From the NCBI GenBank assembly GCA_022795735.1, contig JAAWHG010000009.1, forward strand, positions 1 through 64,000: a stretch of DNA of 64,000 nt. The letters are read 5' to 3'. Every line of letters starts with the position of its first letter. Within the stretch, counting starts at the first letter, position 1. Source of the stretch: Oscillospiraceae bacterium (GTDB taxonomy: Bacteria; Bacillota; Clostridia; Oscillospirales; Oscillospiraceae). Positions 16,900 through 21,544 of this stretch are shown here, one piece after another. A program made the position numbers and the translations under genes. The notes beneath the pieces are model-generated. The model did not search any database, was not told the origin of the DNA, and was given only the letters and a program-made list of their open reading frames with translations.

Positions 16900-17370
16900 A
16901 TGTACACAGAAATTCCGATAACCGAGCTCGTGAAATTCCAGCCAAAGGAACTGAAGGATTATGCCGTCAGCGATTCCGATTATATGGATTACTGTTATGA
17001 AACTGGCTGCACCTTGTCAGGCGGCTTCATCGTCTTTGGCGGCTGGCTGAAGGTTTTTCCGGGGGATATTCTCGGAGACGGCATAAAGCGCGAGGCGTAC
17101 TGCGCGATGGGCGGCCTTGGCATTTCTGTTTATCACGACACGGGAAGATTTATGTGCTCTAATGGCGGATGCCCAAGTAGAAAGTGGTGGACGCCGCATT
17201 ATGTCTATTATCATACCGCGTCTGTGATGGCCTATGCGGCAAGCGAGGCGAACCCGGAGGGAGCGATTATCTTTTTTGATAAACACTCCAACATTATTGC
17301 CGCAGTGAAGCCGGATACGTCAAGATCGCCGTTCATTGGAGGCGGAACCGTAAACTGGGAGAAGGCGTAA
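16900..17370 (+). CDS. Hypothetical protein, 156 residues
   Basis: I do not recognise this protein. It is soluble, with no signal peptide or membrane helix, and rich in aromatic residues and cysteines (DYMDYCYETGC, FMCSNGGCPSRKWW, HYVYYH). The repeated Tyr/Trp and glycine-rich turns suggest a compact beta fold. It is preceded by GAAAGAG and followed directly by a terminator, so it is monocistronic. It lies in a patch of lower GC with an XRE regulator, a pattern seen with transferred cargo genes. An immunity, toxin or stress role cannot be separated from sequence alone. Confidence 0.7.
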   Translation: MYTEIPITELVKFQPKELKDYAVSDSDYMDYCYETGCTLSGGFIVFGGWLKVFPGDILGDGIKREAYCAMGGLGISVYHDTGRFMCSNGGCPSRKWWTPHYVYYHTASVMAYAASEANPEGAIIFFDKHSNIIAAVKPDTSRSPFIGGGTVNWEKA

Positions 17371-17378
17371 CTGCAACA

Positions 17379-17415
17379 AAAGACGTCCCGCTGCGCACAG
17401 CGGGGCGTCTTTTTT
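17379..17415. terminator. Terminator between the hypothetical gene and the convergent HTH gene
   Basis: Stem AAGACGTCCCGCTG/CAGCGGGGCGTCTT with a CGCA loop and T-run (17408-17415) on the plus side. It begins about 9 bases after the plus-strand stop. The A-run on its left makes it possibly bidirectional, serving the end of the cobalamin-kinase run. Confidence 0.8.
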
Positions 17416-18472
17416 AGAGCAGCGGCAGGAGTCCGTCCGCTTCCTCCAAATCCATGTGTTCGAGGAGGACGCGCACGTAACGCGCCACGCTGTCCACGTC
17501 GTCCGGCCCGCTGCGGTAGCCGTTGCGCCAATATTCCTCCGCCAGGGCGGCGCAGCGGCGGCGCGTCCCGGCGTCCCGCGTGACGGCGAGCAGCCCTGTC
17601 GCGTTTCCCAGCGCCAGCTCCGGATGGGTCAGGGCGAGCTGTTGCAGGGCGTAAATCACAACGCTCTCCAACCGGTCCCGGACCGACAGCGGCTCCATTC
17701 CGGCGTATTCCAGCAGCGTGTCGGTCTCCGCGAGGGTCATGCCCAGATGGAGGCCCAGCGCGATCAGGTCCCGGCGGCGGGGGACCACGCCGTGCTGCTT
17801 GAGCAGGGAAAGCTGCTTTTCTACCCGCGCGGGGAGTTGCAGACTGTGTAGGCTTCCCCCGCCGTCCCGCGTGGCCTCCAACCGCCGCATGGTCAAAAAG
17901 TCGCCCAAAAACCGTTCCAGCTTGAGCTTTCGTGCGCACAGCTCGGCCCCAAACTCCCGAAAAAAGTCGGAGAACGCCGCTTCAGTGTCAATCAAGGCCA
18001 GACGGGCGGCCAGCATCGTTGTGGAGATGGCCGAATCACCAGCCGGGAGCTGCTCCGGCAGCAGACGGCGGTACAGCGCGGCGGCGTCTGCGTAACGGTA
18101 CCCCGCGCCGCCCCCTGCGCGGCGGCGCAGGCAGAAGATACAGGCGGCGTCGAACGGGTCGCGGGGATTGAGGCCGCAGTAGCCGCCGTAACGGGAGAGC
18201 ATGCCGCTGACCGCCTCGGGCGGCATGGACGCGCCGAAACCAACCTTGAGAAAGCTGTCCCGGCTTCGCGGTGCGCTCCCCTCGAGCCGCCATGCCTTGA
18301 CGGTGTTGCGGCTCAGCCCGGACAGGGCCGCGAAGCGGCTGTAGCTGAGGCCCGACCCGTCCAAGAGGGCGGTGAAAAAGTCTTGCCACGGCTCGTTCCA
18401 ACCCTCCGTCCCGCCCAACAGAGTCAGCACGTCGGCCACGGTCTCGCAGCGGTCAATGGGCCGGTTATCCAT
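17414..18472 (-). CDS. HTH-containing regulator coupled to the lectin-kinase gene
   Basis: A 352-residue soluble protein. Near residues 41-65 is a helix-turn-helix (SRFAALSGLSRNTVKAWRLEG). The rest is mostly helical, with a conserved-looking NPRDPFDAACIFCLRR segment and a later helical block (VEKQLSLLKQHGVVPRRRDL) that resembles a second DNA-binding or dimerisation unit. The ATG at 18472 overlaps the kinase stop codon (ATGGATAA), so the two are translationally coupled. The natural inference is that this protein is a target or output partner of the kinase. An earlier in-frame start inside the kinase gene has no ribosome binding site. Confidence 0.75.
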   Translation of the reverse strand: MDNRPIDRCETVADVLTLLGGTEGWNEPWQDFFTALLDGSGLSYSRFAALSGLSRNTVKAWRLEGSAPRSRDSFLKVGFGASMPPEAVSGMLSRYGGYCGLNPRDPFDAACIFCLRRRAGGGAGYRYADAAALYRRLLPEQLPAGDSAISTTMLAARLALIDTEAAFSDFFREFGAELCARKLKLERFLGDFLTMRRLEATRDGGGSLHSLQLPARVEKQLSLLKQHGVVPRRRDLIALGLHLGMTLAETDTLLEYAGMEPLSVRDRLESVVIYALQQLALTHPELALGNATGLLAVTRDAGTRRRCAALAEEYWRNGYRSGPDDVDSVARYVRVLLEHMDLEEADGLLPLL

Positions 18473-19928
18473 CGTCCCACTGGCAGACAAAGCCGCATCG
18501 GGACTGTTCAAACAGTTCCATGCCCCGGTCGCGGGAATCGTTCCAGACCCATTCCCGCCCGTCCTTCCGGTAGAGCATCAGGAAATGTTCTTCCCCGCCC
18601 TCGTTGTTGGGTTCCCCAATGGCCCAGGCGGCGAACGAGAAGGGCTCTCCCGTTACCCACTGAAAGCCGCTGCTGCTGTTGCGGTTGTCCGCGCCGAGCC
18701 AGGCAGTATCGACCCCTTGTTCCTCGAGCATCGCGGTTACCTCGTCCATCTGGGACTGATCGAGAATGGTTGCCAGATGCCCGCCCCGGGCCTCGCAATA
18801 AATCCGGGCTTCTTCCCAGGTCATGGCCGCCTTGACCACGGTATAACGCCGGATGGGCGCTTCATTTTCTGCGCCGGATTGGAGCGGCTGTCCGTCCGCC
18901 TCGGGGTCCGCCGCCTCCTCCGGCGCAGGCTCGGACAGAACAGGATCGGGAGGCGCGGGAAGAGGCGGCGGCACGGGCGCGGCCAACCGCGTGAACAGGG
19001 CGGTCAGCGCCGCCGCGGCGCAGAGCCAGCCCAAAATCGCGGCGGCGGGCCAGAAGGGGTCAGGTGGATGCAGCGCCTTGATAAAGGCCTCCGCCGAATC
19101 GAAGCGGCGGCGCGGGTCGCTGTGGCAGAGCTTCAAGACCGCCTTTTTCAGCCGCCGGTCCCCTGCTGGCGGCGGCGGAAGACGGGCGCCGTCCCACCGG
19201 CGGCGGATGGCGGCTTCCCGCTGGGCATAGGTGGCGTCCTCGCCGCTGAGCGGGAGCTGGCCCTGGTTGAGGAGCTGGTAGAGCACAACGCCCAGCGAAT
19301 AGAGGTCAGCGCGGCTGTCATAGGCCCCGCCCCGCGCCACCTCGGGCGCGAGATAGGCCGCCGTCCCAGCCATGGTCTCCAGCAACCCCGCGCGGCTCCG
19401 GCGGGCGATGCCGAAGTCGCCAAGCTGAAAGCGCCCGTCAGGGGTGCGGTACAGGTTGGCGGGCTTGACATCCCGATGAATCAGTCCCGCCCGGTGGACA
19501 GCGGACAGGGCGGCGGCGGCGTCCTTCGCCAGGGTTCGTATCTGTGCGGCGGAGATGACCTCCCCTTCACGCAAAAGCTCGGCAAGGCAGTCCAGCCGCT
19601 CCATGCGGAGGAGAATGTCCCAGCCGGACAGCGTTCCGTCCTCATAGAGAGGAAAGCGGTCCTCATCGTAGAGCGTGACGACGTTGGCGCAGGCGCGGAG
19701 GCGGCGCAGGGCGGCGATCTCCTCTTGTGCCTCGTCCAATTGGCGCGACAGGCCATCACCCTGCCCGAGCAGAGTGATGGCCTTGACCACGCAGGGCAGA
19801 CCGGTCCCGTCCTGCCCATCGGAGAGGGCGTATACGCTGCAACCGCCGCTCCGGTAGAGTCTTGCCCCGAGCTGCCAGCGTCCCCAAAGCGGGGCGTAGG
19901 CGCGCAGGCGTTTTTCCAGAGGGTCCAC
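18465..19928 (-). CDS. Membrane Ser/Thr protein kinase with extracellular C-type lectin domain
   Basis: A 487-residue Hanks-type kinase. Residues ~15-285 form the kinase: a Gly-rich loop of variant form (RSGGCSVY), VVK Lys near 49, catalytic HRDVKPANL near 151, LGDFG near 170 and APEV near 195. A membrane helix at ~293-315 is followed by a Pro-rich linker. A C-type-lectin fold spans ~360-487, with EPNN (~439), WND (~462) and terminal cysteines CGFVC. EPN plus WND is the Ca2+/sugar site of mannose-type lectins. The start is the second GTG, 7 nt after AGGAGG; the first GTG is one base from it. It follows the ABC-2 permease gene by 35 bases and overlaps the HTH gene. It is likely a surface glycan or wall sensor. 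Confidence 0.9.
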   Translation of the reverse strand: MDPLEKRLRAYAPLWGRWQLGARLYRSGGCSVYALSDGQDGTGLPCVVKAITLLGQGDGLSRQLDEAQEEIAALRRLRACANVVTLYDEDRFPLYEDGTLSGWDILLRMERLDCLAELLREGEVISAAQIRTLAKDAAAALSAVHRAGLIHRDVKPANLYRTPDGRFQLGDFGIARRSRAGLLETMAGTAAYLAPEVARGGAYDSRADLYSLGVVLYQLLNQGQLPLSGEDATYAQREAAIRRRWDGARLPPPPAGDRRLKKAVLKLCHSDPRRRFDSAEAFIKALHPPDPFWPAAAILGWLCAAAALTALFTRLAAPVPPPLPAPPDPVLSEPAPEEAADPEADGQPLQSGAENEAPIRRYTVVKAAMTWEEARIYCEARGGHLATILDQSQMDEVTAMLEEQGVDTAWLGADNRNSSSGFQWVTGEPFSFAAWAIGEPNNEGGEEHFLMLYRKDGREWVWNDSRDRGMELFEQSRCGFVCQWDDG

Positions 19929-19963: not shown

Positions 19964-20695
19964 CTACAAATTTTTCTTCTTGTACACAAACCACAGCCCC
20001 GCCGCGCCGAGCACGGCGAGATAGGCCAGCAGCACCCCGATGCCCCACAGCCCCGCCGGCTGGCCGTAAGCGATGGCGCGGACCATGCGGCTGGCCTGGG
20101 ACAGGGGCAGAGCGGCGATGAACTCCCGCAGGCCATGGGGAATGGTGTCGGAGGAGAAAAAGGTGTTGCAGAGATAGGCCATCGGCATGATAAAGTAGTT
20201 GGAAAACCGGGGCACGTCGGCGTGGCTGCGCGCCAAGAAGGAGATAACCACCCCCAGCGCCGCGAAAACCGCTCCGTTTAAAAACAGCACCACTAGAGAC
20301 AGGAGGTTGAAGGTCAAACCGGTCTTTGCGGGAAGGGTCAGCAGCAGGACGATGCCGCCGGCGTACAATCCCCGCAGTCCGCCCGCGAGAATCTGCCCCG
20401 CCACAAACTGCCACAGTGGCGTCGGCGAGATGATGACCTGGTCAAATGCCTTTTCGTAGAGCCGCTGCACGTTGAGATTTTGGGCAATGGCGTTGAAGCT
20501 GCCGTTCATGGTGGTGAGGGCGACCACGCCGGGGATGAGGAAGTAGAGATAGGGCTGGCCGTTCATCTCAGTGCGGATGCCCCAGCCGAAGACGATCAAA
20601 TACATGGCCGGCGCGATCATGGCGGCCAAGGTAATCCGGACAAAGTCCCGGCGAAACTCCCGCCACTTTTCCCACAAAATCGTGATAATTCCCAT
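19964..20695 (-). CDS. ABC-2 type transporter permease
   Basis: The 243-residue product has about six membrane helices and the ABC-2 layout, with PLWQFVAGQILAGG and the FSNYFIMPMAYLCNTFFSS segment. It is the membrane half of an exporter with the ATPase encoded 12 bases upstream. The exported substrate is unknown (drug, lipid or polysaccharide are the usual classes). It belongs to the run that begins at the cobalamin riboswitch and is followed by the kinase. Confidence 0.9.
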   Translation of the reverse strand: MGIITILWEKWREFRRDFVRITLAAMIAPAMYLIVFGWGIRTEMNGQPYLYFLIPGVVALTTMNGSFNAIAQNLNVQRLYEKAFDQVIISPTPLWQFVAGQILAGGLRGLYAGGIVLLLTLPAKTGLTFNLLSLVVLFLNGAVFAALGVVISFLARSHADVPRFSNYFIMPMAYLCNTFFSSDTIPHGLREFIAALPLSQASRMVRAIAYGQPAGLWGIGVLLAYLAVLGAAGLWFVYKKKNL

Positions 20696-20707
20696 ACTGG
20701 CCGCCCC

Positions 20708-21544
20708 CTATGAAAGCTTCTTGCCCACCCGTTCGACGAAAACGTCCTCCAGAGTGGTATCCCGCAGGGCACAGCGCCCGTCCAGGCCGGAGAGCCAGTC
20801 AATGGCGTCTTCCCGCCGCTGGAAGTACCGGCTTTGTACCCCGTCCTCCGACAGCTCGTCCACGGCGAAAGCCCCCAGCCCCTCGATGAGGGCGGCTGGG
20901 GTATCCACCTCGGTGAGCCGCCCGCCGTCCATCAGGGCCACCCTGCCGCAGAGGGATTGCGCCTCTTCCATGTAATGGGTGGTCAGCAGAATGGTCAGGC
21001 CCTGCCGGTTGAGGCGGCGGAGCAGGTTCCACATCTGGCGGCGGGAAATGGCGTCCATGCCGGCGGTGGGCTCGTCGAGCAGCAGCAGCTCGGGATTGGT
21101 CAGCAGGGCGCGGCAGACCATCAGCTTGCGCTTCATGCCGCCCGACAGCTTGCGCACCGTCTTGCCCCGGTGGGCGGACAGCCCCGCAAATTCAAACAAC
21201 TCCTCCGTCCGGGCGCGGATATCCCGGACGGGCATATAGTAGAGACGGCCCTGATACTCCATAATTTCGTCCATATTCATGTCTTGGCGCATGGAATACT
21301 CCTGGGTGACGACGCTGACCTTGCGCTTGATCTCTTTGCGCTGGCGGGTGAGGGGCTCGCCGTCGATGCGGATTTCACCGGCGGTGGGCAGGAGCAGGGT
21401 GGAGAGCATGCCGATGGTGGTGGTCTTCCCGGCGCCGTTGGGGCCGAGGAGGCCAAAAAACTCACCGCTGCCGATGGTAAGATCAATGCCGTCCACCGCT
21501 GTAAAGGAACCGAAGCGCTTGGTCAGACCGGACAGCGCAATCAC
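20708..21544 (-). CDS. ABC-2 type transporter ATP-binding protein
   Basis: A 278-residue DrrA/NodI-type ATPase with Walker A GPNGAGKTT, signature LSGGMKRKL, Walker B LLLLDEPTAGMD and the H-loop in LLTTHYMEEA. The last ~60 residues (YFQRREDAIDWLSGL and TLEDVFVERVG) are the usual regulatory C-terminus of this class. The GTG start overlaps the cobI stop codon by GTGA, so it is coupled to cobI and lies in the cobalamin-riboswitch run. Confidence 0.93.
   Translation of the reverse strand: MIALSGLTKRFGSFTAVDGIDLTIGSGEFFGLLGPNGAGKTTTIGMLSTLLLPTAGEIRIDGEPLTRQRKEIKRKVSVVTQEYSMRQDMNMDEIMEYQGRLYYMPVRDIRARTEELFEFAGLSAHRGKTVRKLSGGMKRKLMVCRALLTNPELLLLDEPTAGMDAISRRQMWNLLRRLNRQGLTILLTTHYMEEAQSLCGRVALMDGGRLTEVDTPAALIEGLGAFAVDELSEDGVQSRYFQRREDAIDWLSGLDGRCALRDTTLEDVFVERVGKKLS

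Follow-up and report, generated by a model that had tools for sequence, protein, structure and literature searches.

A membrane Ser/Thr kinase with a predicted C-type lectin ectodomain and its adjoining HTH protein: a candidate membrane-to-DNA signalling pair in Clostridia

What might a bacterium do with a membrane kinase that appears to display a lectin on the outside, and whose gene runs directly into one for a helix-turn-helix (HTH) protein? This question is raised by two overlapping genes in a 64-kb stretch of Oscillospiraceae DNA (64,000 nt, referred to below as the window) from a 2.4-Mb draft genome that is 90% complete. Our preferred answer, which we hold with a probability of roughly 0.6, is that together these genes encode a membrane-to-DNA signalling pair, in which a ligand is perceived outside, the kinase is switched, the HTH partner is controlled and transcription is changed. 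The first-pass annotation of this DNA had proposed a one-signal pathway of this kind, and the analysis described here partly supports that interpretation. Gut Clostridia encounter both host and microbial glycans, and few glycan receptors are known beyond two-component and PTS systems. A mannose-type lectin kinase with one dedicated DNA-binding partner would link a sugar at the cell surface to a gene by a compact and testable route.

The locus and its two products

The pair is a two-gene unit on the minus strand, in which a 487-aa kinase-lectin gene (GTG start at 19928, stop at 18465-18467) is followed by a 352-aa HTH gene (ATG at 18472, stop at 17414). The coordinates given by the first-pass annotation, and its claim that the HTH gene overlaps the kinase stop codon, were right.

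19964..21544, minus strand: ABC-2 permease and ATPase genes, directly upstream of the kinase gene, 35-nt gap
18465..19928, minus strand: membrane Ser/Thr kinase with lectin ectodomain, 487 aa (ORF; Pfam Pkinase and Lectin_C)
18465..18472, minus strand: overlap of kinase stop and HTH start, 8 nt, ATGGATAA
17414..18472, minus strand: HTH partner protein, 352 aa (ORF)
17387..17404, minus strand: terminator-like hairpin directly 3' of the HTH gene

The neighbours of the pair in the window are metabolic and transport genes. No promoter-like site was found in the 35-nt gap between the ABC-2 genes and the kinase gene, and these genes are possibly co-transcribed in this genome; the ABC-2 neighbours are not kept at the other orthologue loci, and TATAAT-like boxes lie upstream of the kinase in four relatives. 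At the opposite end, an ORF on the plus strand (16900-17370) converges on the HTH gene, with a two-way terminator-like hairpin common to both. Its 156-aa product has no Pfam or NCBIfam match.

The kinase-lectin protein divides into the following parts.

19071..19892, minus strand: cytoplasmic kinase domain, residues 13-286 (Pfam and orthologue alignment)
18990..19046, minus strand: single membrane helix, residues 295-313 (hydropathy 1.93, 19-residue window)
18849..18989, minus strand: Pro- and acid-rich outside linker, residues 314-360
18477..18848, minus strand: C-type lectin ectodomain, residues 361-484 (Pfam, AlphaFold2 model, PDB matches)
18588..18614, minus strand: Ca2+-site motif EPNNEGGEE, residues 439-447, with ligands E439, N441 and E447
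18537..18545, minus strand: Ca2+-site motif WND, residues 462-464, with ligands N463 and D464

Residues 47-281 match Pfam Pkinase above the curated cut-off (E 4.8e-32), and K49, HRD (151-153), N158, DFG (171-173), APE and an activation-loop threonine are all present. None of the eight lectin-bearing orthologues has lost Lys49, the HRD Asp, Asn158, the DFG Asp, APE or the activation-loop Thr; in one of the eight DFG reads DFS, with the Asp retained, and in one orthologue the alignment places Gln at the alphaC Glu position. The glycine-rich loop reads LYRSGGCSVY against a consensus of LGxGxFGxVY, and its GxGxxG motif is degenerate in every orthologue. An intact GxGxxG loop is common among Hanks-type kinases, but not universal. 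The 'intact' core of the first-pass annotation therefore stands for the HRD and DFG catalytic motifs but not for the glycine-rich loop. We assign the protein to the Hanks-type fold on its profile score, and the loss of the loop makes us more guarded in predicting activity.

The one membrane helix expected from the first reading was recovered as a single hydrophobic segment, with an equivalent in all eight lectin-bearing orthologues. Given the basic residues that precede this helix and the acidic stretch that follows it, the lectin is predicted to lie outside. The intervening region is weakly conserved (29-36% identity across residues 287-360), and conservation of the lectin domain across species is 50-68%.

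The ectodomain matches Pfam Lectin_C (PF00059; E 3.2e-11, residues 368-464, 44.4 bits against a curated cut-off of 22.6) and is the only PF00059 match in the source genome. In an AlphaFold2 model built from seven sequences, with a mean pLDDT of 65.6 and a poorly predicted long loop, the elements follow the order of a C-type lectin-like domain (CTLD): strand-helix-helix-strand, loop, three strands. The best Foldseek match of this model was mannose receptor CRD-4 (1egg, E 2.7e-6), a VIA search gave Z scores of up to 11.3 over 102-103 residues (rmsd 3.2-3.3), and the top of both lists consisted exclusively of C-type lectin folds. The first-pass annotation had proposed exactly this fold, carrying both EPN and WND, and had suggested structure prediction and a fold search as a check; both the fold and the motifs were borne out. 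The five ligands of Ca2+ site 2 (E439, N441, E447, N463 and D464) are invariant in all eight orthologues, and the eight-residue spacing from E439 to E447 is that of mannose-binding protein. The outer disulphide pair (Cys378/Cys482) is kept, whereas the protein does not have the second, inner pair that is canonical for C-type lectins.

The ligands of many C-type lectin folds are proteins or ice, several of the top VIA matches are C-type lectin folds that do not bind sugar, and the motif alone does not give sugar specificity. It is conceivable, then, that Ca2+ only stabilises the lectin, with a protein or peptide as the ligand, or that the lectin is an adhesin. We regard this variant of the main model as unlikely, albeit with appreciable weight, since the full EPN, E and WND set is found in 8/8 orthologues and mannose receptor CRD-4 is among the close matches in both sequence and fold. 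The variant is compatible with the other readings, and its weight falls outside their sum.

The second gene encodes a protein for which a Pfam search returned no family above cut-off and no FHA match. Two regions of it could be delineated.

18182..18403, minus strand: XRE/lambda-repressor-type DNA-binding domain, residues 24-97, the first copy of the HTH unit (model)
17603..17803, minus strand: second copy of the post-HTH motif, residues 224-290, no recognisable recognition helix (profile i-E 1.7e-12)

In the structural model, pLDDT in the DNA-binding domain is mostly above 80 from residue 30, and a VIA comparison covering residues 24-119 matched C.Esp1396I, P22 c2, SinR and DdrO (Z about 8-9, rmsd 2.2-3.6). 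HipB is one of the more distant fold matches to the model. The HTH assignment made at first reading is thus refined to a modelled XRE/lambda-repressor fold at residues 24 to about 97. The C-terminal half of the model is of low confidence and its last quarter uncertain. Profile comparison identifies the 352-aa protein as a doubled version of a family of small HTH proteins, about 142 aa long, in which the HTH is followed by the motif PSR..L...G..L......LL...GY..LY.R...D...IY; this motif occurs twice in the 352-aa protein. A small relative matches Pfam HTH_31 and HTH_3.

Pairing in orthologues and across Clostridia

A scan of 84,980 species genomes returned seven HTH loci: two from Agathobaculum sp., one each from Candidatus Agathobaculum intestinipullorum and Candidatus Avoscillospira avistercoris, and three from an Oscillospiraceae MAG, a Ruminococcaceae MAG (the G123 contig) and an unplaced Bacillota MAG. 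A kinase gene lies directly upstream of the HTH gene in all seven, and likewise upstream of an additional full HTH homologue in genome G301. Six of the seven scan loci, together with G301 and the window, make up the eight lectin-bearing loci. In every one of these eight the HTH gene follows the active-type kinase-lectin gene directly, with an overlap or a gap of up to about 16 nt, and the eight loci sit in differing genomic surroundings. The bacterial family was sampled through 150 genomes, three of which contain strong HTH homologues, in each case adjoined by an active-type kinase-lectin gene. The survey of kinase and HTH co-occurrence suggested by the first-pass annotation consequently upholds the pairing, both for these orthologues and, as described below, for the HTH family at large. 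Presence of the pair is patchy, as G053, a genome of the same genus as the source, has neither gene.

The genes flanking the pair vary among lineages, and a shared operator-like palindrome upstream of the kinase was not found in the eight loci compared. With a gene neighbourhood that is not conserved and no such palindrome, no target gene is in view. Genes downstream of the HTH gene at the Agathobaculum-type loci (L042:7240-9541, L043:3208-4641, L044:6995-8581 and L079:5006-6484) include an AMP-ligase-like gene in three of the four and, in the fourth, genes for a PMT-like and a PgfS-like glycosyltransferase. We considered these neighbours as a clue to the target and dropped them, as they vary with lineage and are too little to build on.

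Two sets of relatives depart from the active lectin-bearing form. In the most distant pair, from the Bacillota MAG S16M_St_76, the HTH protein is kept at 33% identity and the kinase is without both lectin and membrane helix. This kinase reads HLD and GFD and is therefore probably inactive. The second set comprises 17 pseudokinase-lectins from the same bacterial family, in each of which a kinase-like C-lobe accompanies a related lectin domain and a membrane helix. They are without the HRD Asp and have no N-lobe match, with HGG.RPGN replacing HRD.KP.N; all 17 carry EPS or EPT in place of EPN, with the E, E, N and D of the Ca2+ site kept. No HTH gene was seen beside any of these 17 loci in the family sample. 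The catalytic residues, the full sugar-type Ca2+ site and the HTH gene thus co-vary in the sampled proteins.

The pseudokinase-lectin family with the EPS-type site is widespread (L014, L019, L021, L022, L024, L027-L030 and L032-L038), and some of its members (L035, L038) lie just upstream of the elongation factor P gene efp. Several genomes of the same family additionally encode proteins of about 630 aa that combine a vWA-like region with a C-terminal C-type lectin and have no kinase (L101-L103, L031).

A search with the HTH alignment only, covering 295 genomes of the order, returned full homologues and weak matches to small HTH proteins. At 17 of 20 loci recovered with the HTH as the only query, a kinase gene lay within 2.4 kb, and at all 20 one lay within about 4.2 kb, with the HTH and kinase genes arranged in tandem, divergently or convergently. 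Across all 30 loci of the order search, window included, a kinase was present within 1.5-kb flanks in 16. Pkinase matches average 3.7 per genome (82 in 22 genomes of 2-3 Mb), which puts chance proximity at about 1-2%. A profile of the small HTH matched 91 of 245 genomes of the class, with a kinase within 1.5 kb at 18 of 23 loci; this profile was built from kinase-adjacent members, so that 18/23 is partly biased and 17/20 is unbiased. The reverse association is weaker, with an HTH in five of 20 kinase-chosen regions, a count that led us to reject the notion that all accessory kinases come with an HTH of this kind.

The HTH family is common in Clostridia and stands mostly beside a Ser/Thr kinase. 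Its partner kinases range from soluble proteins of about 235 aa up to receptors, whose additional parts include LRR (three cases), a Big_3 Ig-like domain with a sub-threshold PASTA match, several membrane helices, and the lectin. The pair in the window is the lectin form of a more general clostridial scheme that couples a single HTH family to kinases with exchangeable sensors. More tentatively, and at odds that we place just short of even, the family may define a large undescribed phosphosignalling class of Clostridia, in which XRE-like HTH proteins are wired to Ser/Thr kinases and the sensor is freely exchanged; the lectin form would be a Ca2+-dependent glycan receptor kinase that acts on transcription without a two-component relay. 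The wider pairing joins one output to many inputs. Through it, a cognate partner can be predicted for many orphan Ser/Thr kinases of Clostridia, a group whose substrates are usually difficult to assign.

The source genome contains two further kinase-HTH pairs (G000:C34, L096; G000:C4, L128), each with the gene for a soluble kinase of about 240 aa divergent from a 141-aa HTH gene. Proteins of about 345 aa that carry a Macro domain and a C-terminal HTH matching the kinase-paired family occur in many Clostridia (L171, L174, L175 and probably L176 and L177). At a further locus (L080, G247:C78, 139-7210), one strand encodes a Sel1-like-repeat kinase, a PP2C, a vWA (TerY-like) protein, a 467-aa protein of unknown function, an HTH relative and a second PP2C.

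A proposed mechanism and its rivals

The preferred reading builds on the domain make-up, the predicted topology, the Ca2+-ligand set, most of the catalytic residues, the fixed pairing and the modelled DNA-binding fold. From here we infer the type of ligand, the mode of activation, phosphotransfer and the regulation of genes. The outside lectin would bind a ligand, probably a glycan held through bound Ca2+. Binding may cluster the receptors or shift their conformation, and so switch the kinase inside. The kinase would then govern the HTH protein translated alongside it, most likely by phosphorylating it on Ser/Thr, and this partner would in turn alter the transcription of its target genes.

What we doubt most is the need for catalysis, in view of the lost glycine loop and the one apparently dead relative. 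The S16M_St_76 kinase is probably dead, yet its HTH is kept, making a non-catalytic role possible. On such a scheme the kinase would be mainly a membrane anchor that holds or releases the HTH protein according to lectin occupancy, without phosphorylation, and the pseudokinase-lectins, as common relatives in the same bacterial family, also lend it some credit. Lys49, the HRD Asp, Asn158, the DFG Asp and the activation-loop Thr are nonetheless kept in 8/8 orthologues, a pattern unexpected without selection for catalysis, and the probably dead kinase has also lost the membrane helix and the lectin. We consider the anchor decidedly unlikely.

A further scheme, to which we give a slightly lower weight, has the kinase acting on other proteins, for instance cell-envelope enzymes, and the HTH protein merely regulating the operon. 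Many bacterial Hanks kinases act on more than one substrate, and a small HTH protein encoded nearby often regulates its own expression. However, the pairing persists amid unrelated surroundings and with very different sensors, and no conserved operator-like palindrome was found upstream of the kinase in the eight loci. A HipA-HipB-like toxin-antitoxin module, in which an XRE-type partner restrains a harmful kinase, would account for a kinase and an XRE-fold protein in an overlapping operon and for HipB among the fold matches, but is very improbable for a Hanks-type membrane kinase with a conserved outside lectin, whose gene comes first, whose Pfam matches are to Pkinase and PK_Tyr_Ser-Thr with none to HipA, and whose class includes many other kinases with membrane helices.

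Comparison with known systems

The first-pass annotation knew of no named system with this make-up. For the exact combination this holds in open-access papers, but each half has precedent (PMC4601284, PMC7517822). Our search of the open-access literature found no paper on the exact make-up or on clostridial kinase-HTH pairing, an absence that is weak evidence, and both the combination and the pairing are apparently undescribed.

PADLOC matches to the anti-phage kinases PD-T4-6 and MAD6 (best 3e-37) cover the kinase domain alone, as expected of any Hanks kinase. The protein resembles the PASTA kinases (PknB/PrkC/Stk1) in combining a Hanks kinase, one membrane helix and an outside ligand domain, but has no PASTA repeats in Pfam and scores 117 against the 450-bit cut-off of NF033483. 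A separate and better Pkinase match of about 696 aa is presumably the PASTA kinase of the source genome.

Pkn1 of Chlamydia is a kinase-FGE/CLec protein, whose kinase is fused to a member of the broader CLec superfamily; the domain described here is Lectin_C (PF00059) and not FGE-sulfatase. Chlamydial kinases with a NirV domain have also been described (PMC1262709).

A closer parallel to the fusion itself is offered by cyanobacterial kinase-CLec proteins, which likewise join a kinase to a C-terminal domain of C-type-lectin fold and have been linked to diversity-generating retroelements (DGRs) (PMC7517822). Their CLec domain, proposed to control the kinase, is mostly predicted to be cytosolic and is in many cases hypervariable (PMC7517822), whereas the domain in the present protein is predicted outside and is conserved, with EPN and WND kept. 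A Pkinase domain also figures among DGR-target domains (PMC10907252). No template-like repeat of the lectin DNA was found within the 64-kb window, and we dropped DGR diversification of the lectin on that ground.

The pairing with a regulator finds its counterpart in PknH-EmbR and PknL-Rv2175c of M. tuberculosis, in which a membrane Ser/Thr kinase has a DNA-binding substrate (PMC4601284). The regulators of those pairs are of the OmpR/SARP-FHA or winged-HTH type, whereas the HTH protein here has an XRE fold and no FHA domain, and the outside domains of PknH and PknL are not lectins. The underlying arrangement, a membrane Ser/Thr kinase together with a DNA-binding protein, is the same.
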